The translations under genes were made by a program, and so were the position numbers. Below, in pieces: positions 17,422 to 28,777 of a DNA stretch of 64,000 bases (position 1 is its first letter; each line of letters opens with the position of its first letter). The notes under the pieces were generated by a model that searched no databases, was not told the DNA's origin, and saw only the letters and a program-made list of their open reading frames with translations. Origin of the DNA: Amycolatopsis deserti (GTDB taxonomy: Bacteria > Actinomycetota > Actinomycetes > Mycobacteriales > Pseudonocardiaceae); NCBI RefSeq assembly GCF_014653945.1, contig NZ_BNAU01000007.1, positions 310,001 through 374,000 of the forward strand. The letters are read 5' to 3'.

Positions 17422-18630
17422 ATGCTGGGCCCCGTGGCCTATGACGTAACCGCAGTACGCAAGCACTTCCCCGCGCTCGACGAGGGCGCCGCGCACTTCG
17501 ACGGCCCCGGCGGCTCGCAGGTGCCGGACGTCGTCGGCGAGGCCGTCGCCGCGACCCTGTGCGCCGCGATCGCCAACCGCGGCTCGATCACCGCCGCCGA
17601 GCGTCGCGCCGACGGCATCGTGGCGCAGGCGCGCCAGGCCGCGGCCGACCTGCTCGGCGCCGAGCCCGGCGGCGTCGTGTTCGGGCGCAGCATGACCCAG
17701 CTGACCTACGACTTCTCCCGCACGCTCGCCAAGACCTGGCAGCCGGGCGACGAGGTCGTGGTGACCCGGCTGGACCACGACGCGAACATCCGGCCGTGGG
17801 TGCAGGCCGCGGAGGCGCACGGGGTCACCGTGCGGTGGGCGGACTTCGACCCGTCCTCCGGCGAGCTCGCCGTCGACGCCATCACCAGCCTGCTCTCCGA
17901 CCGCACCCGCCTGGTCGCGGTGACCGCGGCGTCCAACCTGCTCGGCACCCGCCCGGACATCCCGGCGATCGCCGCCGCGGTGCACGAAACCCCAGCGTTG
18001 CTCTACGTCGACGGCGTGCACCTCACTCCGCACGCGCCCGTCGACGTCACCGCACTGGGCGCCGACTTCTACGGCTGCTCGCCGTACAAGTTCCTCGGTC
18101 CGCACCTCGGGCTGGTCGCGGCCGCGCCCGAACTTCTGGAGACCCTGCACCCGGACAAGCTCGCGCCCTCGACCAACGCCGTGCCGGAACGGTTCGAGCT
18201 GGGCACGCTGCCGTACGAGCTGCTGGCCGGGACCACCGCGGCGATCGACTTCCTGGCCGGCCTCGTGCCCGGCGACGGCACCCGCCGTCAGCGCCTGCTG
18301 CGGTCGCTGACCGAACTGGAGGAGCACGAGCAGGCCCTGCTCGACCGCCTCGACGCCGGACTCGCGGGAATCCCCGGCGTGACCCGATACGGCTCCCCCA
18401 CCCGACGGCGTACCCCGACGGTCCTGTTCTCCGTCGAGGGCGTGCCGTCGCAGGTCGTCTACGAGCGCCTCGGCGCGCGCGGCGTGAACGCGCCCGCGGG
18501 CAGCTTCTACGCGCTGGAATGCTCCCGCCACCTGGGACTCGGTGACACCGGCGCGGTCCGGGCCGGCATCGCGCCCTACACGACGGCCGCCGAGGTCGAC
18601 CGGCTTCTCGACGGGGTCCGCAGCCTCTGA
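17422..18630 (+). CDS. Cysteine desulfurase-like PLP enzyme (TIGR01976 type)
   Basis: This 402-residue fold-type I aminotransferase of class V is related to cysteine desulfurases. The PLP lysine is in CSPYKFLGPH, and the aspartate that holds the PLP ring is in LLYVDGVHLTPH. Members of this subgroup lack an established substrate. True sulfur-transfer activity needs a mobile-loop cysteine that I cannot place confidently. The start at ATG 17422 leaves a 3-bp gap after the regulator; GTG 17434 is possible. A 15-bp hairpin at 18635-18674 ends the transcript. Confidence 0.85.
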   Translation: MLGPVAYDVTAVRKHFPALDEGAAHFDGPGGSQVPDVVGEAVAATLCAAIANRGSITAAERRADGIVAQARQAAADLLGAEPGGVVFGRSMTQLTYDFSRTLAKTWQPGDEVVVTRLDHDANIRPWVQAAEAHGVTVRWADFDPSSGELAVDAITSLLSDRTRLVAVTAASNLLGTRPDIPAIAAAVHETPALLYVDGVHLTPHAPVDVTALGADFYGCSPYKFLGPHLGLVAAAPELLETLHPDKLAPSTNAVPERFELGTLPYELLAGTTAAIDFLAGLVPGDGTRRQRLLRSLTELEEHEQALLDRLDAGLAGIPGVTRYGSPTRRRTPTVLFSVEGVPSQVVYERLGARGVNAPAGSFYALECSRHLGLGDTGAVRAGIAPYTTAAEVDRLLDGVRSL

Positions 18631-18634
18631 CCGG

Positions 18635-18674
18635 GCGAGGTGCACAGGCGCGACGGCAAGCCTGTGCACCTCGC
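18635..18674 (+). terminator. Hairpin terminator after the cysteine-desulfurase-like gene
   Basis: A perfect 15-bp inverted repeat (18635-18649 with 18660-18674, left arm GCGAGGTGCACAGGC) and a 10-nt loop start 5 bp past the stop codon. It separates the regulator/desulfurase operon from the permease operon that begins at 18744. Confidence 0.8.
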
Positions 18675-18743: not shown

Positions 18744-20069
18744 ATGGCCTCGTCAGTCGGTGTCGACGACTACGCCCTCACCAGAGTCCCGGACAGCGCC
18801 CGCTACTCATGGTGGTCGGTCGCGATCCAACGGTTCGGCCAGGTGTCCGCGCTCTCGCAGTTCCTGCTCGGCGCGACCGTCGGCTTCGGGATGAGCTTCT
18901 GGCAGGCGTTCCTCGCGTTCACCCTCGGCTCGGTGATCCTCGAACTCATCACGATCCTCGTCGGCGTGATCGGCATGCGCGAAGGCCTGTCGACGTCGAT
19001 GATCGCCCGCTGGACCGGCTTCGGCCGCGGCGGGTCCGCGCTGATCGGGCTCGCGATCGGGATCAGCCTCATCGGCTGGTTCGGCATCCAGTCCGCGGTG
19101 TCGGCCCAGGGTCTCGTCTCGCTCATCGGCGGCCTGCCGGAATGGGCGTGGGCGCTGGTGTTCGGCCTGCTCGTGACCGCGATCGTGGTGCGCGGCTTCC
19201 ACTCGATGGCGTGGACGGCGTACCTGACCGTCCCGGCGTTCCTGATCCTGGTCGGCTGGTCGATCATCTCCGAGCTGTCCAGCCACGACGTCGCCGCGCT
19301 GGTGTCGTCGGCGCCGCCCGGCCCGGGACTGAGCCTGCTGGAGGGCACCACGCTCGTCGCCGGCGGGTTCATCGTCGGCGCGGTGATCACGCCGGACATG
19401 ACGCGGTTCAACCGCACCACCGGTGACGTGGTCAAGCAGACGCTGGTCGGCATCACGCTCGGCGAGTACGTGATCGGCATGGCCGGCGTGCTCCTGGCGC
19501 ACGCGGTGAAGTCGGCCGAGATCACCACGATCGTGACGTCGTCGGTCGGCTGGGTCGGTCTGCTGATCGTGATCGCCGGAACCATCAAGATCAACGACTG
19601 GAACCTGTACTCGTCCGGGCTGGGCGTCGTGAACTTCATCGGCACCGTCTCCGGCCGCAAGGCCCACCGCGGCCTGATCACCGCCGTGCTCGGCATCGTC
19701 GGCAGCGTCCTCGCCGCCGCCGGGATCCTCGGCGCGTTCTCCGACTTCCTCACCCTGCTCGGCGTCGCGTTCCCGCCGATCGCCGGGATCATGGTGGCCG
19801 AGTACTTCGTGGTCAAGAAGTGGCGCGGCGAACTGGAAGCCGCGCGTGCCAAGGGAACCGTGCCCGAGGACGCGCCGGTGTGGGTGCCGGCCACCATCGT
19901 CGTCTGGGTCGCCTCGGCGCTGATCGGCAAGTTCGTCGAGTGGGGCCTGCCCAGCATCAACTCGCTCGTCGTGGCGTTCGTGCTCTACGTGGTCGCGGGC
20001 AAGCTCGGCCTGGTGCGCGGCATCGGCCGCAGCCGCACCGCCGACGCCGACCCCGTTCCCGCCGTCTAG
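18744..20069 (+). CDS. NCS1-type cytosine/purine permease
   Basis: This 441-residue protein has about twelve membrane segments and matches the CodB-like branch of nucleobase:cation symporter-1. It has an N-terminal WWSVAIQRFGQVSALSQF region and a conserved PDMTRFNR loop near the middle. The family imports purines, pyrimidines, hydantoins and related ring compounds with Na+ or H+. ATG 18744 has an ideal AAGGAGGT ribosome site. It leads a run of five tightly packed genes (to 24494) and should supply their substrate. The exact ligand is unknown; hydantoin- or thiohydantoin-like molecules fit the neighbours. Confidence 0.88.
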   Translation: MASSVGVDDYALTRVPDSARYSWWSVAIQRFGQVSALSQFLLGATVGFGMSFWQAFLAFTLGSVILELITILVGVIGMREGLSTSMIARWTGFGRGGSALIGLAIGISLIGWFGIQSAVSAQGLVSLIGGLPEWAWALVFGLLVTAIVVRGFHSMAWTAYLTVPAFLILVGWSIISELSSHDVAALVSSAPPGPGLSLLEGTTLVAGGFIVGAVITPDMTRFNRTTGDVVKQTLVGITLGEYVIGMAGVLLAHAVKSAEITTIVTSSVGWVGLLIVIAGTIKINDWNLYSSGLGVVNFIGTVSGRKAHRGLITAVLGIVGSVLAAAGILGAFSDFLTLLGVAFPPIAGIMVAEYFVVKKWRGELEAARAKGTVPEDAPVWVPATIVVWVASALIGKFVEWGLPSINSLVVAFVLYVVAGKLGLVRGIGRSRTADADPVPAV

Positions 20070-20084
20070 GAAAGGAAAACTCTC

Positions 20085-21623
20085 GTGCGCATCGGCATCG
20101 ACGTCGGCGGCACCAACACCGACGCGGTCCTGCTGGACGGGCGGCAGGTGCTCGCCTCGATCAAGACCAGCACCACCGAGGACGTCACCTCCGGCATCGT
20201 CGCCGCGATCAACGGCCTGCAGCAGCAGCGCGCGTTCGACCCGGCGGCGGTGCAGGCGGTGATGATCGGCACCACTCACTTCATCAACGCGCTCGTCGAG
20301 GCGCACCGGCTGGCGCCGACCGCCGCCGTGCGGCTCAGCCTGCCCGCCGGCGCGTCACTGCCGCCGATGGTGGACTGGCCGCAGCGGCTGGTCGACGCGG
20401 TGTCCGGGCGCAGCTACCTGGTGCACGGCGGGCACGAGTTCGACGGCCGCCACATCGCCGAGCTCGACGAGTCCGAGCTGCGCAAGGCGGCCGAGGACAT
20501 GGGCGCGGCCGGGGTGCGCAGCGTCGCGATCACCTCGGTCTTCTCCCCCGTCAACGCCGAGTTCGAGGCCCGTGCGGCGGAGATCATCGCCGCCCAGCTG
20601 CCGGACGTGGCGATCTCGCTGTCCCACGAAATCGGCCGGATCGGCCTGCTGGAGCGGGAGAACGCGACCGTCATCAACGCCGCTCTGCGGGAGCTGGCCG
20701 CGCACATCGTGGACGGCCTCGCCGCGTCGGTGTCCGGCGCGGGAATCACCGCGCCGCTGTACCTGAGCCAGAACGACGGCACGCTGATGGACGTCGACTT
20801 CGCCCGCCGCTACCCGGTGGCCACGTTCGCCTCCGGCCCGACCAACTCGATGCGCGGCGCGGCCGTGTTGTCCGGTTTGGACACCTGCGCGGTGGTCGAC
20901 GTCGGCGGCACCACGAGTGACGTCGGCGTGCTGCGGCAGGGCTTCCCGCGCGAGGCGACCACGGATGTCAGCGTCGCCGGGATCCGCACCAACTTCCGCA
21001 TGCCGGACGTGCTGTCCATCGGCATCGGCGGCGGCAGCCGGGTGCGCGGCACGGCCGTCGGCCCGGACTCGGTGGGCTACGAGCTGACCTCGAAGGCCCT
21101 GGTCTTCGGCGGCGACACGCTCACCGCGACCGACCTCGCGGTGGCCGCGGGCCGCGCCGAGATCGGCGACCCGAGCCTGGTCGCGCACCTGGACCGTGAC
21201 CTGGTGCGGGCCGCGCTGGACCGCATCGCCGCCGACGTGTCCGACGTCGTCGAGCGGATGCGCACCTCGGCCGAGCCGCTGCCGGTGGTCGCGGTCGGCG
21301 GTGGTTCGGTGCTGCTGCCGGACGAGCTGTCCGACGCCGGCAAGGTGCACCGGCCGGAGAACTACGCGGTAGCCAACGCGATCGGTGCGGCCATCGCGCA
21401 GATCGGTGGCGAGGTCGACCGGGTGTACGCGATCGAGCCGGGCCGCCGCGAAGCCGTCGTCGAGGAGGCGAAGCAGGAGGCCGTGGACCGCGCGATCGCG
21501 GCCGGGGCCAGCCCCGCGTCGGTCGGCATCGTCGACTTCGACGAGGTGCCCATCCCCTACCTGCCCGGCAACGCCACCCGCATCCGGGTCAAGGCGGTCG
21601 GCGACCTGCAGCTGGGAGCGTGA
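20085..21623 (+). CDS. HyuA-type hydantoinase/oxoprolinase family protein
   Basis: This 512-residue protein has the two ASKHA-like phosphate loops of the hydantoinase A/oxoprolinase family: GIDVGGTNTDAVLL at residue 4 and VVDVGGTTSDVGVL near 270. Members open five-membered cyclic amides, often coupled to ATP. It starts at GTG 20085, after AGGAAAGG, 15 nt behind the permease gene. The next gene overlaps its stop. It is the short form without an attached HyuB. HyuA-DUF917 pairs recur in bacterial genomes, which supports a joint function that is not yet pinned down here. Confidence 0.88.
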   Translation: MRIGIDVGGTNTDAVLLDGRQVLASIKTSTTEDVTSGIVAAINGLQQQRAFDPAAVQAVMIGTTHFINALVEAHRLAPTAAVRLSLPAGASLPPMVDWPQRLVDAVSGRSYLVHGGHEFDGRHIAELDESELRKAAEDMGAAGVRSVAITSVFSPVNAEFEARAAEIIAAQLPDVAISLSHEIGRIGLLERENATVINAALRELAAHIVDGLAASVSGAGITAPLYLSQNDGTLMDVDFARRYPVATFASGPTNSMRGAAVLSGLDTCAVVDVGGTTSDVGVLRQGFPREATTDVSVAGIRTNFRMPDVLSIGIGGGSRVRGTAVGPDSVGYELTSKALVFGGDTLTATDLAVAAGRAEIGDPSLVAHLDRDLVRAALDRIAADVSDVVERMRTSAEPLPVVAVGGGSVLLPDELSDAGKVHRPENYAVANAIGAAIAQIGGEVDRVYAIEPGRREAVVEEAKQEAVDRAIAAGASPASVGIVDFDEVPIPYLPGNATRIRVKAVGDLQLGA

Positions 21624-21625
21624 CG

Positions 21626-22696
21626 ATGCGCGAGATCACGATCGACCACCTCGACGACATTGCCCGCGGCGCCGCGATCCTCGGCACCGGCGGCGGGGGC
21701 GACCCCTACATCGGACGGCTGCTCGCGTCGTCGGCGGTGCGCGACCACGGTCCCGTCGAGCTGGTGCCGCTGGACGAGGTCGGCGACGACGCGGTGGTCC
21801 TGCCGGTCGCGATGATGGGCGCGCCCACGGTGATGGTCGAGAAGCTGCCCTCGGCCGAGCAGGTCGGGCTGGCCGCCCGCACCCTGGCGACCTACCTGGG
21901 CAAGGAGCTGACGCACATCGCGTGCGCCGAGGCCGGCGGGGTCAACTCGCTGATCCCGGTGGTCGCGGCGGCGCAGCTGGGCCTGCCGCTGGTGGACGCC
22001 GACGGCATGGGCCGCGCGTTCCCCGAGCTGCAGATGGTGCTGCCCACGCTGTACGGCATCCGCGCGACCCCGATGTCGATCGCCGACGAGAAGGGCAACC
22101 GCGGCGTGCTGGACACCGTGGACAACCACTGGGCGGAGCGGCTGGCGCGGTCGGCGACGATCGACATGGGCTGCTCGGCGATGATCAGCAACTACGCGAT
22201 GTCCGGCGCGCAGGCCCGCGAGTCGCTCGTGCCGGGCACACTCAGCCTGTGCGCCGAGCTGGGTTCCGCGGTGCGGCAGGCGCGCGCCGAGCACACCGAT
22301 CCCGTCGCGCGGGTGGTGGACCGGCTCGGTGGCCGGAAGCTGTTCCGCGGCAAGGTCGTCGACGTCGCCCGGCGCACGGTCACCGGGTTCGCCCGCGGCG
22401 AGGCGAAGCTGTCCGGAATGGACGGTGACGCGGGCAGCGAGATGGTGCTGAAGTTCCAGAACGAGCACCTGGTCGCCGAGCGGGACGGCGTCGCGCGGGC
22501 GTCGGTGCCGGACCTGATCTGCTGCCTGGACTCCGAGTCCGGGGAGGCGGTGACCACCGAGGGCCTGCGGTACGGCCAGCGGGTCACGGTGATCGCCGCG
22601 CCCGCGGATCCGCGCTGGCACACGCCGGAGGGCATCGAGCTGGCCGGGCCGCGCTACTTCGGCTACGACATCGACCCGGTCGGGGTTCCGGCATGA
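21626..22696 (+). CDS. DUF917 family protein (S-methyl thiohydantoin desulfurase-like), copy 1
   Basis: This 356-residue DUF917 protein carries the hallmark AAILGTGGGGDPYIGRLL at its N-terminus, then AEAGGVNSL and DADGMGRAFPELQM. Pfam now ties this family to S-methyl thiohydantoin desulfurase, from memory. Other members accompany hydantoin-type genes without known activity. ATG 21626 has GGGAG seven bases ahead. A GTG at 21620 overlapping the HyuA stop is the alternative. It is followed by a second DUF917 gene with a 4-bp overlap. The paired copies suggest a two-subunit enzyme or two related reactions. Confidence 0.85.
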   Translation: MREITIDHLDDIARGAAILGTGGGGDPYIGRLLASSAVRDHGPVELVPLDEVGDDAVVLPVAMMGAPTVMVEKLPSAEQVGLAARTLATYLGKELTHIACAEAGGVNSLIPVVAAAQLGLPLVDADGMGRAFPELQMVLPTLYGIRATPMSIADEKGNRGVLDTVDNHWAERLARSATIDMGCSAMISNYAMSGAQARESLVPGTLSLCAELGSAVRQARAEHTDPVARVVDRLGGRKLFRGKVVDVARRTVTGFARGEAKLSGMDGDAGSEMVLKFQNEHLVAERDGVARASVPDLICCLDSESGEAVTTEGLRYGQRVTVIAAPADPRWHTPEGIELAGPRYFGYDIDPVGVPA

Positions 22697-23787
22697 GCTG
22701 GACGCTGACCGAGGAGCACCTCGAAGACCTGGCACGGGGCGCGGCCGTGCTCGGCACCGGTGGCGGCGGTGACCCGTACGTCGGCCGGTTGCTGGTGCGG
22801 CAGGCGATCCGCGAGCACGGGCCGATCACGATCCTCGACCCGTCCGAGGTCGGCGACGAGGACCTGGTCGTGCCGACCGCGCAGATGGGCGCACCGACCG
22901 TGGTGCACGAGAAGCTGCCCAGCGGCGAGGAGCCGGTGCTGGCGCTGCGCACGCTGGAAAAACACCTGGGCCAGCGGGCGAGCGCGACGATGCCGATCGA
23001 GTGCGGCGGCATCAACTCGATGATCCCGCTGGTCGTCGGCGCGCGGCTGGGCCTGCCGGTGGTCGACGCCGACGGGATGGGCCGCGCGTTCCCCGAGCTG
23101 CAGATGGAGACCTTCGGCGTCTACGGCGTGCCCGGCTCGCCGATGGCGATCGGCGGGGAACGCGGCGAGACCACGGTCATCGACACCGGCTCGGACAACC
23201 GGCGGATGGAGTGGCTCGCACGCGGCGTCACGATCCGGCTGGGCGGGGTCGCGCACATCGCCGAGTACGCGATGAGCGGCGCGGAGGTCAAGCGCACCGC
23301 GGTGCCCCGCACGCTGTCGCTCGCGTTGACCGTGGGCCGCACGATCCGGGAGGCGCGGGAGAACAACCTGGACCCGGTTTCGGAGCTGGCCGGGGCGTTG
23401 CACGAGACGCTGTACCAGAACCTGCGCGTGATCTTCCGCGGCAAGGTGTCCGATGTGGAGCGCCGGACCGAGGCCGGGTTCGCGCGCGGACGGGCGCAGG
23501 CGGTGTCGTTCGACGGCGAGCACAAGCTCGAGCTGTTGTTCCAGAACGAGAACCTGCTGGCGCTGGTCGACGGCGAGGTGCGGTGCCTGGTGCCGGACCT
23601 GGTCTGCGTGCTGGAGTCGGAGTCGGCCGAGCCGATCACCACCGAGACGCTGCGCTACGGCCAGCGGGTCGTGGTGGTCGGCATCTCGACCCCGGACCTG
23701 ATGCGCACGCCGGAGGCGCTGGCGACGTTCGGGCCGGCCGCGTTCGGGTTGTCCTACGAGTTCACACCGGTGGAGGAACTGCTGTGA
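22693..23787 (+). CDS. DUF917 family protein, copy 2
   Basis: This 364-residue paralogue of the preceding gene has the same landmarks: AAVLGTGGGGDPYVGRLL, PIECGGINSM and DADGMGRAFPELQM. The cysteine in IECGG, where copy 1 has AEAGG, is a notable difference. It is coupled at both ends by 4-bp overlaps (ATGA at 22693 and GTGA at 23784). Equal amounts of both DUF917 proteins and the SDR are therefore likely. Activity is unknown; by family it may act on a hydantoin- or thiohydantoin-like ring. Confidence 0.85.
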   Translation: MSWTLTEEHLEDLARGAAVLGTGGGGDPYVGRLLVRQAIREHGPITILDPSEVGDEDLVVPTAQMGAPTVVHEKLPSGEEPVLALRTLEKHLGQRASATMPIECGGINSMIPLVVGARLGLPVVDADGMGRAFPELQMETFGVYGVPGSPMAIGGERGETTVIDTGSDNRRMEWLARGVTIRLGGVAHIAEYAMSGAEVKRTAVPRTLSLALTVGRTIREARENNLDPVSELAGALHETLYQNLRVIFRGKVSDVERRTEAGFARGRAQAVSFDGEHKLELLFQNENLLALVDGEVRCLVPDLVCVLESESAEPITTETLRYGQRVVVVGISTPDLMRTPEALATFGPAAFGLSYEFTPVEELL

Positions 23788-24494
23788 GTCTGGCGGATCG
23801 GGTCGTCGTGATCATCGGCGGCGGGTCGGGCATCGGGTTCGAGGTGGCGCGGCGGGCCGCGGACGCCGGGGCGCGGGTTTTCCTGGGCGGGCGCACCGCG
23901 GCGACGCTGGAGGCCGCGGCGGAGAAGATCGGCGCGCAGTGGCACGTCGTGGACAACACCGACCAGGACTCGCTGGCCGAGTTCTTCGGCGCCGTGCCGC
24001 GGGTGGACCACCTGTTCACGCCCGGCGCCTCCTACACGACCGGGCCGATGCGGGAGCTGTCCGACGAAGACGCGGCGAGCCCGTTCGTGACGAAGTTCTG
24101 GGGCCAGTACCACGCGGTCAAGCACGCGGCGCCGAAGCTGTCCCGGGACGGCTCGGTGGTGCTGATGTCCGGCGCGGCGAGCGTGCGCCCGCCGGGCCCG
24201 GCGCCCGCGTACATCGCGTGCAACGCCGCGATCGAGGGGCTCGGCCGCGGGCTGGCGGTGGAGCTGGCGCCGGTGCGGGTCAACGTGGTCGCGCCGGGCA
24301 CGATCGACGGGAACCTGTGGTCGCAGCGCCCCTCGGACGTCCGCGAGGCGAGCTTCGCGCAGTACCGTTCGGACACGGTGCTGCACCGCGTCGGCAACGA
24401 GTCCGAAGTGGCCGAGGCGGTGCTCTACCTGTTCGGCGCCACGTTCACCACGGGCTCGACGCTCTACCCGGACGGCGGCTACTCGTTCCGGTAG
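23784..24494 (+). CDS. SDR family protein with a substituted catalytic lysine
   Basis: This 236-residue short-chain dehydrogenase fold has a cofactor loop GGGSGIGFEV and the usual C-terminal VNVVAPG segment. The active-site serine (VLMSGAAS) and tyrosine (PAYIACNAA) are present. The position of the canonical lysine (YxxxK) is asparagine (TAC ATC GCG TGC AAC). Lysine normally lowers the tyrosine pKa and holds NAD(P), so ordinary dehydrogenase chemistry may be altered or absent. The GTG start overlaps the DUF917 stop. It ends the coupled five-gene run. Confidence 0.85.
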   Translation: MSLADRVVVIIGGGSGIGFEVARRAADAGARVFLGGRTAATLEAAAEKIGAQWHVVDNTDQDSLAEFFGAVPRVDHLFTPGASYTTGPMRELSDEDAASPFVTKFWGQYHAVKHAAPKLSRDGSVVLMSGAASVRPPGPAPAYIACNAAIEGLGRGLAVELAPVRVNVVAPGTIDGNLWSQRPSDVREASFAQYRSDTVLHRVGNESEVAEAVLYLFGATFTTGSTLYPDGGYSFR

Positions 24495-24543
24495 GGCCGT
24501 TGGTCGGGTGTTTTTCGCGCCTCCGTGAGGTTGACTCTTCCGG

Positions 24544-25407
24544 ATGAAAGCAGCACTCGCATCGGCCGCCGCCGTCGCCGCGATCCTGGCGACGGCGGCC
24601 CCGGCCTCGGCCATCAGCTCCTACAACGCGACCCCGGCGCCCGAGCGCACCGAGGCCGGCGCCCTCGTCGCGACCTGGGACAACGACGCGAACCCGGCCA
24701 CGCCGGACCGCGTGGACTGGGTCTGCTCGGGCACCATGGTCGACCGCGACACCTTCCTCACCGCCGCGCACTGCACCAGCGACTGGCCCGCGAACGTGCG
24801 GTTCTACGTCTCGCTCGACCAGGACGTGCAGTCCGGCCTCGACGCGGCCGCGCAGCAGTACCCGGGCGACCCCGCGGCCGTGGCGCGCGCGGTGGGCGTG
24901 CCGGGCGTCGCCCACACCGACCCGGCCTACCCGGGCAACTCCGCCGACGCCCACGACATCGCGGTCATCCAGCTGCCCGCGCAGCAGGTCGCCGCGCGCT
25001 GGTCGTTCACCCCGGCGAAGCTGCCCACCGCCGGGCAGCTCGACCAGCTCGGGCCGCGCGGCCTGAACGACACGCCGTTCGTCGTCGTGGGTTACGGGAC
25101 GCAGGAGGCCGTCAACGGTCCCGGCGGCCAGACCCACCCGGGCGGCGGGGTGCGGATGAAGGCGCCGGTCAGCTTCGACGCGCTCAACAAGACCTGGGTG
25201 CGCCTGGCGATGACCGCGCCACAGGGCAACGGCGGCGCCTGCTACGGCGACTCCGGCGGCCCGAACTTCGCCACGATCGGCGGGCAGCGGGTGCTGGTGT
25301 CCACGACCATCACCGGTGACGCGCCGTGCTACGCCACCAACGTGACCTACCGCCTGGACACCCCGTCCGCGCGCACGTTCCTGGCGCCGTTCACCGCGCT
25401 GCCGTAG
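24544..25407 (+). CDS. Secreted trypsin-like serine protease
   Basis: This 287-residue protein has a clear Sec signal peptide (about residues 1-23, ending APASA) and a chymotrypsin-fold domain. The catalytic triad is readable as His in TAAHC, Asp in AHDIAVIQL and Ser in CYGDSGGP. It should be exported and act outside the cell. It follows the SDR gene by 49 nt on the same strand, but a secreted protease has no obvious place in a hydantoin pathway and is probably independent. The 3' end overlaps the converging DUF1445 gene by 17 bp. Confidence 0.9.
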
Positions 25408-26197
25408 TCACGCGGTACTCGCTGTCGCGCCGGTCGGTGATGAACATGTGGCCGGGCGAGTGGGTGATCGCGAACGGCGGCTTCGACGCCATCAACGCCG
25501 CCTGCGGGGTGACCCCGCAGGCCCAGAACACCGGCACGTCACCGGGCTCCGCCTCGACCGGGTCGCCGAAGTCGGGGCGGGCCAGGTCGGCGATCCCGAG
25601 CTCGGCGGGGTCGCCGGCGTGCACCGGCGCGCCGTGCACGGCCGGCATCGCGCCGCTGATCGCGGTCGCCTCGTCGACCAGGCCGGCCGGGATCGGGCGC
25701 ATCGACACGACCAGCGGGCCGTGCAGGCGCCCGGCCGGCCGGCACTGGCGGTTCGTCACGTACATCGGCACGTTGCGGCCCTGCTCGAGGTGCCGCAGCG
25801 GGATGCCGGCCGCGAGCAACCCGGTCTCGAAGGTGAAACTGCACCCGATCGAGAACGCGACCAGGTTCTCCTGCCACAGGCCGCGCACGTCGTCGACCTC
25901 CTCGGCCAGCTCGCCGTGCCGCCACACGCGGTAGCGGGGCAGGTCCCGGCTCAGATCGGCGCCGGGGGCGAGCACGGTCGAGGTGCTGCCCGGGTCGGTG
26001 ACGTCGAGGACCGGGCACGGCCGCGGGTTGCGCTGGCAGAACAGCAGCACGTCGTAGGCCCAGTCGCGCGGCACGGCGATCAGGTTGGTCTGGGTGAAAC
26101 CAGCCGCCCACCCCGACGTCGGCGCCACGGTTCCGGCGCGGAACGCCGCGCGCGCCTGTTCCGGGGTCATGGTCGCGGGATCGTCTACCCTGGTCAT
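25391..26197 (-). CDS. DUF1445 putative hydro-lyase family protein
   Basis: This 268-residue protein matches the YcsI-like DUF1445 family, annotated as putative hydro-lyases and related to a D-glutamate cyclase. Conserved stretches include [11 protein letters not shown] near the N-terminus, [10 protein letters not shown], and [11 protein letters not shown] near the C-terminus. The family is often found with urea-amidolyase or hydantoin-type genes, which fits this site. It is divergent from the third DUF917 gene with only about 28 bp between starts. ATG 26197 is used for want of a better candidate. Confidence 0.82.
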
Positions 26198-26225
26198 ACC
26201 TCCAGCTCAGCACATGAAGGCCAGC

Positions 26226-27287
26226 ATGCGCATCACCGCGGCGGACGTGCCCGCTCTCGAACGGGGCGTCGCGCTGCTCGGGTCGGGCGGGGGCGGCGAC
26301 ACGATGACGGCCGCGGCGCTGCTGCGTCAGCTCGTCACCCACGGCCGCGAACCCGACGTGCCCGCGGCGCTGGATCCGGCGACGCTCGTGATGCCGGTCG
26401 GGATCGTCGGCGCGACCGCCGCGTTCACCGAGAAACTGCCCAGCGGCTCGGAGTTCGCGACCGCGGTGGCGGCGATCGAACGCTGGACCGGCACACCCGC
26501 GGGGGCGCTGGTGTCGATCGAGATCGGCGGGCTGAACGGGCTGATGCCGCTGGTGGCCGCCGTCGAGCTGGGCCTGCCGTGCGCCGACGCGGACCTGTCC
26601 GGGCGCGGGCTGCCGCGGCTGGACCAACTGTCCATCGCCGCGACCGGCCGCGGGCTGGCGCCGGCCGCGCTCGCCGAACCGGGTGGTCAGGTGCTGGTGC
26701 TGGCGGCCGGTTCGGACGAGTCGGTCGAGCGCGGCGCCCGCGCGTTCCTCGCCAGTTCCGGCGGCTGGGCGGCGATGGCGTTCGCCCCGGTGCCCGCGGG
26801 GGACCTGCCCGGGTGCGCGGTGATGGGCAGCGTCACCGGCGCGCTCGAACTGGGGCGGCGGGTGCTCGCGGCCGGGGAGAGCCCCGAGCCGGACCGGCTC
26901 GCCGAAGCGTCCGGCGGGCAGGTGCTCGCGATGGGGCGGGTGCTCGAGGTGTCCCGGCACATCGGGCCCGGGCAGCACGGACGCGCCGGCTTCGGCCGCG
27001 GCAGCGCGACCCTGACCGACCACCGCACCGGCGCGCTGCTGCGGCTGGAGATGGAGAACGAGTACCTGCTGGCCCTGCGCGACGGGCAGCCGGTGGCGTC
27101 CACCCCTGACGTGCTCGCCGTGGTCGACCACCGCACCGGCGTCCCGGTGCCGTGCGACGCGATCCGCGCCGGGATCGAGGTCGACGTGCTGCGGCTGGCC
27201 GCGGCGCCGTTCTGGACCGATCCGCGGCGGCTGCCGGTGCTGCGGCCGCGCGCGTACGGCATCGACTCGGATCCGGTGCTCGCATGA
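26226..27287 (+). CDS. DUF917 family protein, divergent copy 3
   Basis: This 353-residue DUF917 member has the N-terminal LLGSGGGGDTMTAAALL and IEIGGLNGL. The GMGRAFPEL motif of copies 1 and 2 is replaced by LSGRGLPRL, so it is a distinct branch. ATG 26226 has AAGG five bases ahead; ATG 26214 is an in-frame alternative. It overlaps the PucR gene by ATGA, so regulator and enzyme are made together. It may handle a different substrate or act as a sensor component. Confidence 0.82.
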   Translation: MRITAADVPALERGVALLGSGGGGDTMTAAALLRQLVTHGREPDVPAALDPATLVMPVGIVGATAAFTEKLPSGSEFATAVAAIERWTGTPAGALVSIEIGGLNGLMPLVAAVELGLPCADADLSGRGLPRLDQLSIAATGRGLAPAALAEPGGQVLVLAAGSDESVERGARAFLASSGGWAAMAFAPVPAGDLPGCAVMGSVTGALELGRRVLAAGESPEPDRLAEASGGQVLAMGRVLEVSRHIGPGQHGRAGFGRGSATLTDHRTGALLRLEMENEYLLALRDGQPVASTPDVLAVVDHRTGVPVPCDAIRAGIEVDVLRLAAAPFWTDPRRLPVLRPRAYGIDSDPVLA

Positions 27288-28777
27288 TCCTGCGTCGGTT
27301 GCTGGCGCTGCCGTCGTGGGCCGGGGTCCGGGTGGCGGCGGGCGGGTCCGGACTGGACCGTCCACTGGAGACGGTCCGGGCGACGCTGGACGCCGGGGAC
27401 AGCCCGGCGGCCGGTGAGCTGCTGGTGCTGGCGCGCGAGCTGCGGGGCACGGACTGGCAGATCGACGCGCTCCTGCGGCGCGGGGCGGACAGCGGCGCGG
27501 CGGGCCTGCTCCTGCCCGAGGTCGAACCGCTGACCGCGACCCGGCTGCTGGCCGACCGGCTCGCGATGCCGCTGCTGGTGACGGCGGAGCGCCCGCTGGA
27601 CCTGCTCGTCGAGGCCCGGCTGATGCTCGCCGCGCCCGAGCTGGACCGCGCGAACCTGGTGCTCGCCACGCACCGCGCGCTCGGCGAACGGCTGCGCTCG
27701 CCGGAGGAGGTGGTGTCCGCGCTGCGCGGGCTGCTGCGGTCGCCGGTGGCGTTGCTGGACGACCGGGGCGAGCCGGTGGCGGGCGAGCTGGCGTCGGCCG
27801 GGCGTATCCGGGTTGGTGAGCCGGTGCCGCAGCGGGTGGACCTCGACGACGGGGTGTTGCTGGCGCACCCGGCGCTGCTGGCCGGCCCGGTGCTGTGGGT
27901 GGCTGCCGAGCTGACCGGGGCCGAGGCGGCGCGGGCGGACGTGGTGCCGCCGGCCCTGGCGGTCGCGGCGGGCGCGGTGCAGCGGTGGCTGCTGGCGAAC
28001 CGGCTGGAGCTGGAACGGGACGCGCGGTCGCGCACCGCGTTGCTCGGCGACCTGCTGCGGCTGGACGCGGAGCCGGGCGCGGACCTGCGCCGCCGGGCGG
28101 CCGACGCGGGGTGGCGGCTGGGCGGCTGGCACGTCGGGTTGCGCATCGGCGTGGCGTCCAGTGTGGACACGGTGGCGCGGACGACCGAGGTGGTGCGCGC
28201 GCTGCGGGCGGAGCAGATCACGGCGGTGGTCGTCGAGCACGGCGACGGCTGGACCGGGTGGGTGACGTTCGACCAGGAGCCGACGGCCCAGCGGGTGCGC
28301 ACGCTGGCGGCGCGGCTGCGGGCGGCGCACAAGACGCTGCGGCGCACGCTCGGTTCGCACCTCGGGGTCGGCCGCCCGCACCCGCGCCCGGACGGCCTGG
28401 CCGCGACGATCGCCGAGGCGACCGATGCCGCCCGGCTGGCCGCGACCCGGCCGGAGTCGGGGCACTTCCTGCACGTGGACCAGCTGGGGATGGCGCAGCT
28501 GCTGCTGGAGTGGACGCGGACGGACACGTTCGAGCCCGCGGCCCGCGCGCTGGTCGCCCCGCTGCGCAACGCGCCCGGCGACCTGGTGCGGACGCTCGCG
28601 GCGTACCTGGACGCGGAGTCCTCGATCGCCGAGACGGCCGCGGTGCTGGGGGTGCACCGCAACACGGTCGCCGCGCGGATCGCCCGGATCGAGCAGCTGC
28701 TGGGCGTGGACCTCTCCCGCCCGGACGACCGCTTGGCCCTGCACCTGGCCTCGAGAGCCATCACCCTCGGCGACTGA
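27284..28777 (+). CDS. PucR family transcriptional regulator
   Basis: This 497-residue PucR-type regulator has an N-terminal sensory PucR domain (about residues 1-120) and a central GGDEF-like/CdaR region. The C-terminal HTH_30 domain (about 430-490) carries YLDAESSIAETAAVLGVHRNTVAARI. PucR proteins control purine and allantoin-type catabolism. Here the coupled start (ATGA with the third DUF917) and the nearby permease/HyuA operon make it the likely controller of the whole cluster. A 9-bp hairpin at 28804-28828 follows. Confidence 0.9.
   Translation: MILRRLLALPSWAGVRVAAGGSGLDRPLETVRATLDAGDSPAAGELLVLARELRGTDWQIDALLRRGADSGAAGLLLPEVEPLTATRLLADRLAMPLLVTAERPLDLLVEARLMLAAPELDRANLVLATHRALGERLRSPEEVVSALRGLLRSPVALLDDRGEPVAGELASAGRIRVGEPVPQRVDLDDGVLLAHPALLAGPVLWVAAELTGAEAARADVVPPALAVAAGAVQRWLLANRLELERDARSRTALLGDLLRLDAEPGADLRRRAADAGWRLGGWHVGLRIGVASSVDTVARTTEVVRALRAEQITAVVVEHGDGWTGWVTFDQEPTAQRVRTLAARLRAAHKTLRRTLGSHLGVGRPHPRPDGLAATIAEATDAARLAATRPESGHFLHVDQLGMAQLLLEWTRTDTFEPAARALVAPLRNAPGDLVRTLAAYLDAESSIAETAAVLGVHRNTVAARIARIEQLLGVDLSRPDDRLALHLASRAITLGD

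Follow-up and report, generated by a model that had tools for sequence, protein, structure and literature searches.

How might a bacterium hydrolyze a small cyclic amide at a locus that encodes the HyuA-type subunit of an ATP-dependent hydrolase and no HyuB partner? This question is raised by positions 18744-28777 of a 64,000-nucleotide stretch of the Amycolatopsis deserti genome (the window; contig NZ_BNAU01000007.1), where an NCS1 permease, a HyuA-like protein, three DUF917 paralogues (here 917a, 917b and 917c) and a PucR regulator are encoded close together. In caprolactamase, according to PMC8453981, phosphorylation with ATP is assigned to the A subunit, and opening of the ring, which depends on a metal, to the B subunit. 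For the present cluster, we assign a probability of about 0.6 to a core that takes up a small amide-bonded ring and hydrolyzes it at the expense of ATP by means of a short HyuA, with DUF917 replacing HyuB. A preliminary description of the window had noted a HyuA-like protein and read the set as a catabolic route for a cyclic amide; its observations are confirmed and its interpretation is partly supported, the main refinement being that this HyuA is a short form that pairs with DUF917, not with HyuB.

The length of HyuA divides by partner. All HyuA proteins encoded next to a DUF917 gene are short, measuring 385-540 residues in the family set (66 of 66; 60 same-family loci, 59 fetched plus the window's), 439-552 residues in the named set (82 of 82; 80 named loci, the best 80 of 473 and biased to 917a-like proteins), and 385-552 residues after removal of three records common to both sets (145 of 145). 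The ten HyuA genes that adjoin HyuB encode 562-808 residues (eight in family loci, at 562-808, and two in named loci, at 676 and 683). Six further genes belong to neither group, with 516 and 718 residues in family loci and 239, 450, 514 and 532 in named loci, two of the latter four lying at a locus edge. The window's own genome has six HyuA genes, of which the cluster's frame has 517 residues and the other five 691-729. HyuB genes also number five, and each of the five longer HyuA genes has one nearby; PF02538 (HyuB) finds no match in the cluster, its five matches lying on contigs C1 and C2 and the window on C7. The predicted structure of the short HyuA (512 residues) aligns up to CapA residue 613 and ends where the C-terminal barrel of CapA begins. 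PF19278 (Hydant_A_C) matches four of the six own-genome HyuA proteins and not the cluster's, although one HyuB-linked copy also lacks a match. The residues of the phosphate-1 and phosphate-2 motifs, whose roles are taken from PMC8453981, do not vary among the 39 aligned HyuA proteins, with the exception of G9, which is kept in at least 90%. Because HyuA length splits by partner, the short form stops before the CapA barrel and the phosphate motifs are kept, DUF917 appears, as read from sequence, to fill the place of HyuB in a cyclic-amide hydrolase driven by ATP. At three loci (L078, L079 and L080), the HyuA beside DUF917 has just 385-386 residues, with a partial Hydant_A_N match in L078, the one tested; these are possibly a non-kinase form.

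The pairing extends well beyond this genome. A DUF917 gene directly adjoins hyuA in 58 of 60 family loci and 75 of 80 named loci, and the HyuA-DUF917 pair, which occurs across Bacteria and Archaea, is the core of the system. An even draw of genomes across the class, made to reduce selection, contained PF06032 in 13 of 118 genomes, the window's included. Each of the 12 others contributed one locus holding all of its PF06032 matches, and HyuA is adjacent in 11 of these; ten complete HyuA proteins next to DUF917 have 462-546 residues, and L205 has only the start of a HyuA, at a contig end.

In the proposed mechanism, the NCS1 permease would bring the ring into the cell, where the short HyuA, by homology with CapA and 5-oxoprolinase, would phosphorylate the oxygen of the ring amide to yield an activated lactim phosphate. 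917a, probably with 917b, would then take the role of HyuB by adding water to the C=N carbon of the lactim phosphate, opening the ring, while 917c and PucR would most likely detect the substrate or an intermediate. A ureide of the hydantoin type or a small 2,5-diketopiperazine is the likely substrate. In the S-methyl-thiohydantoin desulfurase reaction, water attacks a ring C=N carbon that carries a leaving group, in that case a thiolate, and the DUF917 step would by analogy be of the same kind as the reaction attributed to these relatives. What the HyuA-DUF917 pairing predicts is a particular kind of reaction, in which ATP activates the ring and its opening needs no HyuB. A broader proposal, which we consider doubtful, is that short HyuA and DUF917 form an unrecognized and very widespread type of ATP-dependent enzyme, in which one conserved kinase would serve interchangeable ring-opening DUF917 subunits, bacterial cyclic-dipeptide hydrolases included, and that 917c would be an enzyme-derived, PucR-linked sensor.

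917a and 917b are 51% identical and form sister groups in a midpoint-rooted FastTree tree, the two groups differing at H97 and W331. Among 304 DUF917 proteins, E72, D124, D126, R130, R175 and E280 are kept in all context groups, with scattered exceptions only. The number of DUF917 genes per block with one hyuA varies, being one in 40 blocks, two in 35, three in 42, four in 2 (one of which, at L130, includes a 917c called in two pieces) and five in 1; 16 DUF917 blocks have two hyuA genes, and a 917a-like or 917b-like protein can adjoin HyuA without the other. Two blocks from Anaerolineae/Anaerolineales (L188 and L191) combine one HyuA with four or five DUF917 genes next to peptide-ABC-like genes. 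In 47 loci, all distinct and each with all six genes of the conserved order, partial distance correlations are 0.41 for 917a with 917b and 0.24 for 917a with HyuA. There is weak evidence for a complex of 917a and 917b that would touch HyuA through 917a.

Several observations weigh against an ATP-dependent HyuA-DUF917 enzyme. None of the 39 aligned short HyuA proteins (the window's included) has GxxPGP, the adenosine motif of CapA-type subunits, versus 9 of 10 full-length ones, and overall it occurs in 3 of 154 short HyuA genes. When searched by pattern, the two phosphate motifs are matched in only 130 and 132 of these 154 genes, and some short HyuA proteins may thus be inactive or cut short. 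No invariant histidine was found in the DUF917 alignments, with no evident counterpart of the Asp-His-Asp-His zinc site of HyuB, and a HyuB-like zinc site is therefore not expected in DUF917. The partial distance correlation of 917b with HyuA is about zero (-0.007), and at one locus of the even draw (L210), a divergent DUF917 (25% identity to 917b) lies beside an OPT transporter, with no HyuA. HyuA and DUF917 could also act in successive steps. One form of such a separation, in which DUF917 alone is an ATP-independent hydantoinase-like enzyme and HyuA performs another step of the pathway, draws on the L210 gene, on the two DUF917 desulfurases that NCBIfam names as enzymes in their own right, and on the suggestion of the authors of PMC11055893 that DUF917 proteins are hydantoinases. 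The adjacency of HyuA in 11 of 12 evenly drawn loci and the change of its length with its partner fit a complex better than separate steps, and we regard this alternative as unlikely.

The names of the DUF917 domains in Pfam and NCBIfam, which presumably derive from work on thiohydantoin desulfurases, would suggest desulfurization of thiohydantoins or S-methyl-thiohydantoins, as in ergothioneine-type catabolism. S-Me-THD_N and S-Me-THD_C are indeed above the Pfam cut-off in all three DUF917 proteins, and the sole NCBIfam models that these proteins match are the two desulfurases. The scores of 917a, 917b and 917c are, however, 113.6, 83.8 and 69.4 bits against a cut-off of 450, and 76.9, 78.2 and 62.7 bits against one of 440. 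No ergothionase- or urocanate-hydratase-like family occurs in the cluster or among the 25 commonest of 98 neighbor families (112 neighbors, named loci; the own genome was not searched). The preliminary description had already judged the ergothioneine route a poor fit, and with scores so far below the cut-offs desulfurization is improbable here. A similarly low standing is given to ordinary breakdown of purines or pyrimidines, such as allantoin or dihydrouracil, by known chemistry: the NCS1 permease and PucR would be at home in such a pathway, and HyuA has matches to two N-methylhydantoinase entries, 7hk5 and 9h03 (the latter with dihydrouridine in its title), but allantoinase, dihydropyrimidinase and uricase families are absent from the cluster and from the same 25 families. 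The best structural matches of HyuA also include the carboxylase subunits 5l9w and 5svb/5svc, as would be expected if the system were a carboxylase akin to acetone and acetophenone carboxylases, in which HyuA would activate bicarbonate or a ketone. These known carboxylases use a HyuB-type metal subunit, as stated in PMC8453981, and no such match is found in the cluster; the permease family, neighboring racemases and peptide-type genes suggest ring amides instead, making a carboxylase the most remote of the alternatives.

The third paralogue, 917c, is coupled to PucR, as had been noted before; it had also been set apart from the main gene run, whereas in relatives it belongs to the same conserved block as 917a and 917b and follows 917b closely in many genera. 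A signature of 917c, R134/D136 in 917a numbering, was picked after viewing the 917c family and occurs in 57 of the 304 DUF917 proteins. pucR is the next gene after 50 of these 57 (48 within 250 bp, 37 with a 4-bp overlap; one record is counted twice), hyuA is next in four and unlabelled genes in three, and among the 247 DUF917 proteins without the signature pucR is next in 19. At four loci (L101, L117, L133 and L159), 917c is encoded on the other strand from the enzyme genes, with pucR alongside in the first three. Mean pairwise identities over the 47 loci are 73% for the permease, 79% for HyuA, 70% for 917a and 75% for 917b, as compared to 50% for 917c and 51% for PucR, and the partial distance correlation of 917c with PucR is 0.30, a value reached in 0 of 500 permutations. 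These sequence comparisons, which show 917c coupled to PucR and diverging at the same pace, suggest that it could be a sensor of the substrate or an intermediate acting with PucR, which is a reasonable reading, if a weak one. On the other side, 917c retains the core polar residues of its enzyme paralogues, it also correlates with HyuA (0.20) and 917a (0.24), and the mirror-tree values behind the sensor idea are small.

The permease scores 87 bits with PF02133 (cut-off 23.5, for a longer reading with start 18678) and 163 bits with the CodB model NF008241, below its cut-off of 326. According to two papers, CodB contacts cytosine through Gln105, Trp108 and Phe204, and Mhp1 holds hydantoin through Asn318 and Gln121 (PMC9379551), with an Mhp1 pocket made up of A38, W117, Q121, W220, N314 and N318 (PMC13390362). 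In an alignment of 85 permeases of such loci, which contains two records twice, the place of CodB Gln105 is taken by Leu109 in the window's protein and is Gln in none, the place of Mhp1 Gln121 is Gln in 84 (Q116 here), and W112, N284 and N287 are present in all 85. Lys282, a lysine in 83 of 85, replaces Thr278, a sodium ligand of CodB, and proton coupling of the permease is therefore possible.

Genes around the pair also bear on the substrate. Of 149 distinct loci, seven have a PF01177 racemase-like gene at most four genes away from DUF917 or short HyuA, two an AroM gene, five a cyclodipeptide-oxidase (CDO)-like gene, four an M19 dipeptidase and one a carbon-nitrogen hydrolase, in addition to 20 with peptide-ABC-like components (by BLAST, one at 24% identity) and six with a large molybdenum-hydroxylase subunit (two at about 30% identity); some of these assignments are weak, and the families were Pfam-checked for examples. 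oligo_HPY is found in 13 of 112 neighbors scanned, a part of 131 selected. Two loci of the window's type are informative: L203 carries genes for a racemase, the two CDO-like subunits and an NCS1 permease divergent from hyuA-917a-917b-917c-pucR, and in L152, an M19 dipeptidase gene lies 83 bp after pucR. The family matches of the window's cluster include neither a racemase nor a dipeptidase, and PF01177 matches elsewhere in the genome. The permease residues and neighboring racemases suggest hydantoin-like rings, which we tentatively place just short of an even chance, and the peptide ABC transporters, CDO-like genes and dipeptidases of related loci suggest diketopiperazines, a possible but less favored substrate; both fit the sequence, which does not decide between them. 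Degrading strains of Microbacterium, Leifsonia and Paenibacillus are described in the literature, and the same genera occur among the named loci as other strains, which is a lead only. CDO-like nitroreductase and/or DUF6092 genes lie beside DUF917 at L138, L143, L162, L198 and L203, fused in the first two, and HyuA-DUF917 lies beside molybdenum hydroxylase genes at L161, L072, L100, L118, L178 and L179. This latter arrangement suggests that, in such lineages, a heterocycle may be oxidized before ring opening.

The gene content, positions, overlaps and gaps of at most 15 bp originally reported for the five-gene run from permease to short-chain dehydrogenase/reductase (SDR) agree with the coordinates and Pfam matches obtained here (Table 1), as does the divergence of the DUF1445 gene from 917c. 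The permease and hyuA genes are separated by 15 bp, and 4-bp overlaps join 917a to 917b, 917b to the SDR gene and 917c to pucR; an alternative GTG start of 917a at 21620 would give a 4-bp overlap with hyuA as well. The trypsin-like gene sits between the SDR and DUF1445 genes. A search of the own genome with PF06032 yields exactly three matches, all of them the cluster's DUF917 genes. The N-terminal PucR domain PF07905 scores 25.3 bits, with a cut-off of 33.5.

Table 1. Genes of the cluster, in window coordinates
Feature	Positions	Strand	Family matches and remarks
NCS1 permease (CodB/Mhp1 type)	18744-20069	+	PF02133; PDB relatives 7qoa (CodB), 4d1a (Mhp1)
hyuA, short HyuA, ASKHA-type ATPase/kinase subunit without CapA C-terminal barrel	20085-21623	+	
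917a, proposed ring-opening partner of HyuA	21626-22696	+	PF06032/PF20906; ATG start 21626
917b, sister paralogue of 917a	22693-23787	+	PF06032/PF20906
SDR dehydrogenase, lineage-limited addition	23784-24494	+	PF13561/PF00106
Trypsin-like protease, insertion, non-core	24544-25407	+	PF00089; 5/60 loci
DUF1445/D-glutamate cyclase-like, genus-level insertion, non-core	25391-26197	-	PF07286; NF003969, 413.4 bits (cut-off 324)
917c, PucR-coupled paralogue, proposed sensor	26214-27287	+	PF06032/PF20906; R135/D137 signature
pucR, PucR/CdaR-type regulator	27284-28777	+	C-terminal PF13556 (HTH_30) 77.8 bits and PF17853 (GGDEF_2) 52.8 bits, both above cut-off

Conservation of this arrangement, for which the preliminary description had proposed a search in other actinomycetes, is evident at several depths, and the lack of a conserved gene order in relatives, named there as a refuting outcome, is not seen. 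Within the genus, 19 genomes were compared: 15, among them the window's, have PF06032, and 11, again with the window's, have two DUF917 genes in tandem and a further copy at a distance of 1.8-3.8 kb from the second gene; a 917a-like match at E 1e-60 or better occurs in 90 of 297 genomes of the family. The order permease-short hyuA-917a-917b-917c-pucR, with at most four inserted genes, is present in 25 of 60 family loci (counting the window) and 23 of 80 named loci, one record being in both, and occurs in Saccharopolyspora, Kribbella, Sphaerisporangium, Curtobacterium, Microbacterium, Leifsonia, Microlunatus and others. As the tandem pair with a third copy recurs within the genus, and the gene order recurs across genera, the arrangement is not due to chance. 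Gene calls in both locus sets and in the class draw were made with a codon-score script, such that starts and lengths are approximate, and at L130 and L207 a DUF917 gene was called as two pieces. The records present in both sets are L121/L070, L129/L095 and L180/L109. L121 was dropped from the 304-protein, signature, block and 47-locus analyses and counted in the 80-locus HyuA lengths, the permease alignment and the gene-order tally; L129 and L180 entered every count for which their genes qualified, the distinct-record recount excepted.

The SDR, DUF1445 and protease genes are called at only 11, 8 and 5 of the 60 family loci, respectively, and are thus lineage-limited additions outside the conserved route; tblastn matches over most of the gene place the SDR at 12 of 60, and all eight DUF1445 loci belong to the window's genus. 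The gene content fits the cyclic-amide catabolic cluster first proposed, and the SDR and DUF1445 genes drop out of the conserved route. Upstream of the permease lies a class V aminotransferase gene (TIGR01976, cysteine-desulfurase-like; 17422-18630), such a gene being present in 11 of 60 family loci; in Nonomuraea (L127), a 54% identical aminotransferase gene is likewise upstream of the permease. A hairpin-like inverted repeat at 18638-18671, similar to ones seen by eye in several relatives, lies between the aminotransferase and permease genes and may separate their transcripts.

As in CapAB, 5-oxoprolinase and N-methylhydantoinase, the cluster's HyuA has an ASKHA fold and both phosphate-binding motifs, and the ATP activation of a cyclic amide proposed here is modeled by analogy on the lactamases and hydantoinases built from HyuA and HyuB. 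Unlike those enzymes, it has neither the C-terminal barrel nor GxxPGP, and its partner is DUF917. Each of the three DUF917 proteins is matched along most of its length by the models of thiohydantoin and S-methyl-thiohydantoin desulfurases (NF058529 and NF058532), whereas the scores are about a quarter or less of the cut-offs and the cluster's DUF917 genes are coupled to HyuA and an NCS1 permease. DUF917 is found across Bacteria and Archaea, yet is rarely named in the literature searched, and one solved structure was matched by sequence; CV_3147 (PDB 2o3i), a DUF917 protein from structural genomics with 27% identity, is deposited as a hypothetical protein. A limited literature search found no paper describing the HyuA-DUF917 pair. 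The related loci resemble the CDO-associated DUF917 clusters of PMC11055893 in having hydantoin racemase, AroM and CDO-like genes near DUF917; the accessible part of that paper makes no mention of a partnership with a short HyuA or of a 917a/b/c-PucR operon. By its organization, the cluster is a variant of the ATP-dependent cyclic-amide hydrolases that shares some, not all, of the defining features of HyuAB, and what it adds to them is a general pairing of HyuA with DUF917 and no HyuB, together with a DUF917 protein linked to PucR.

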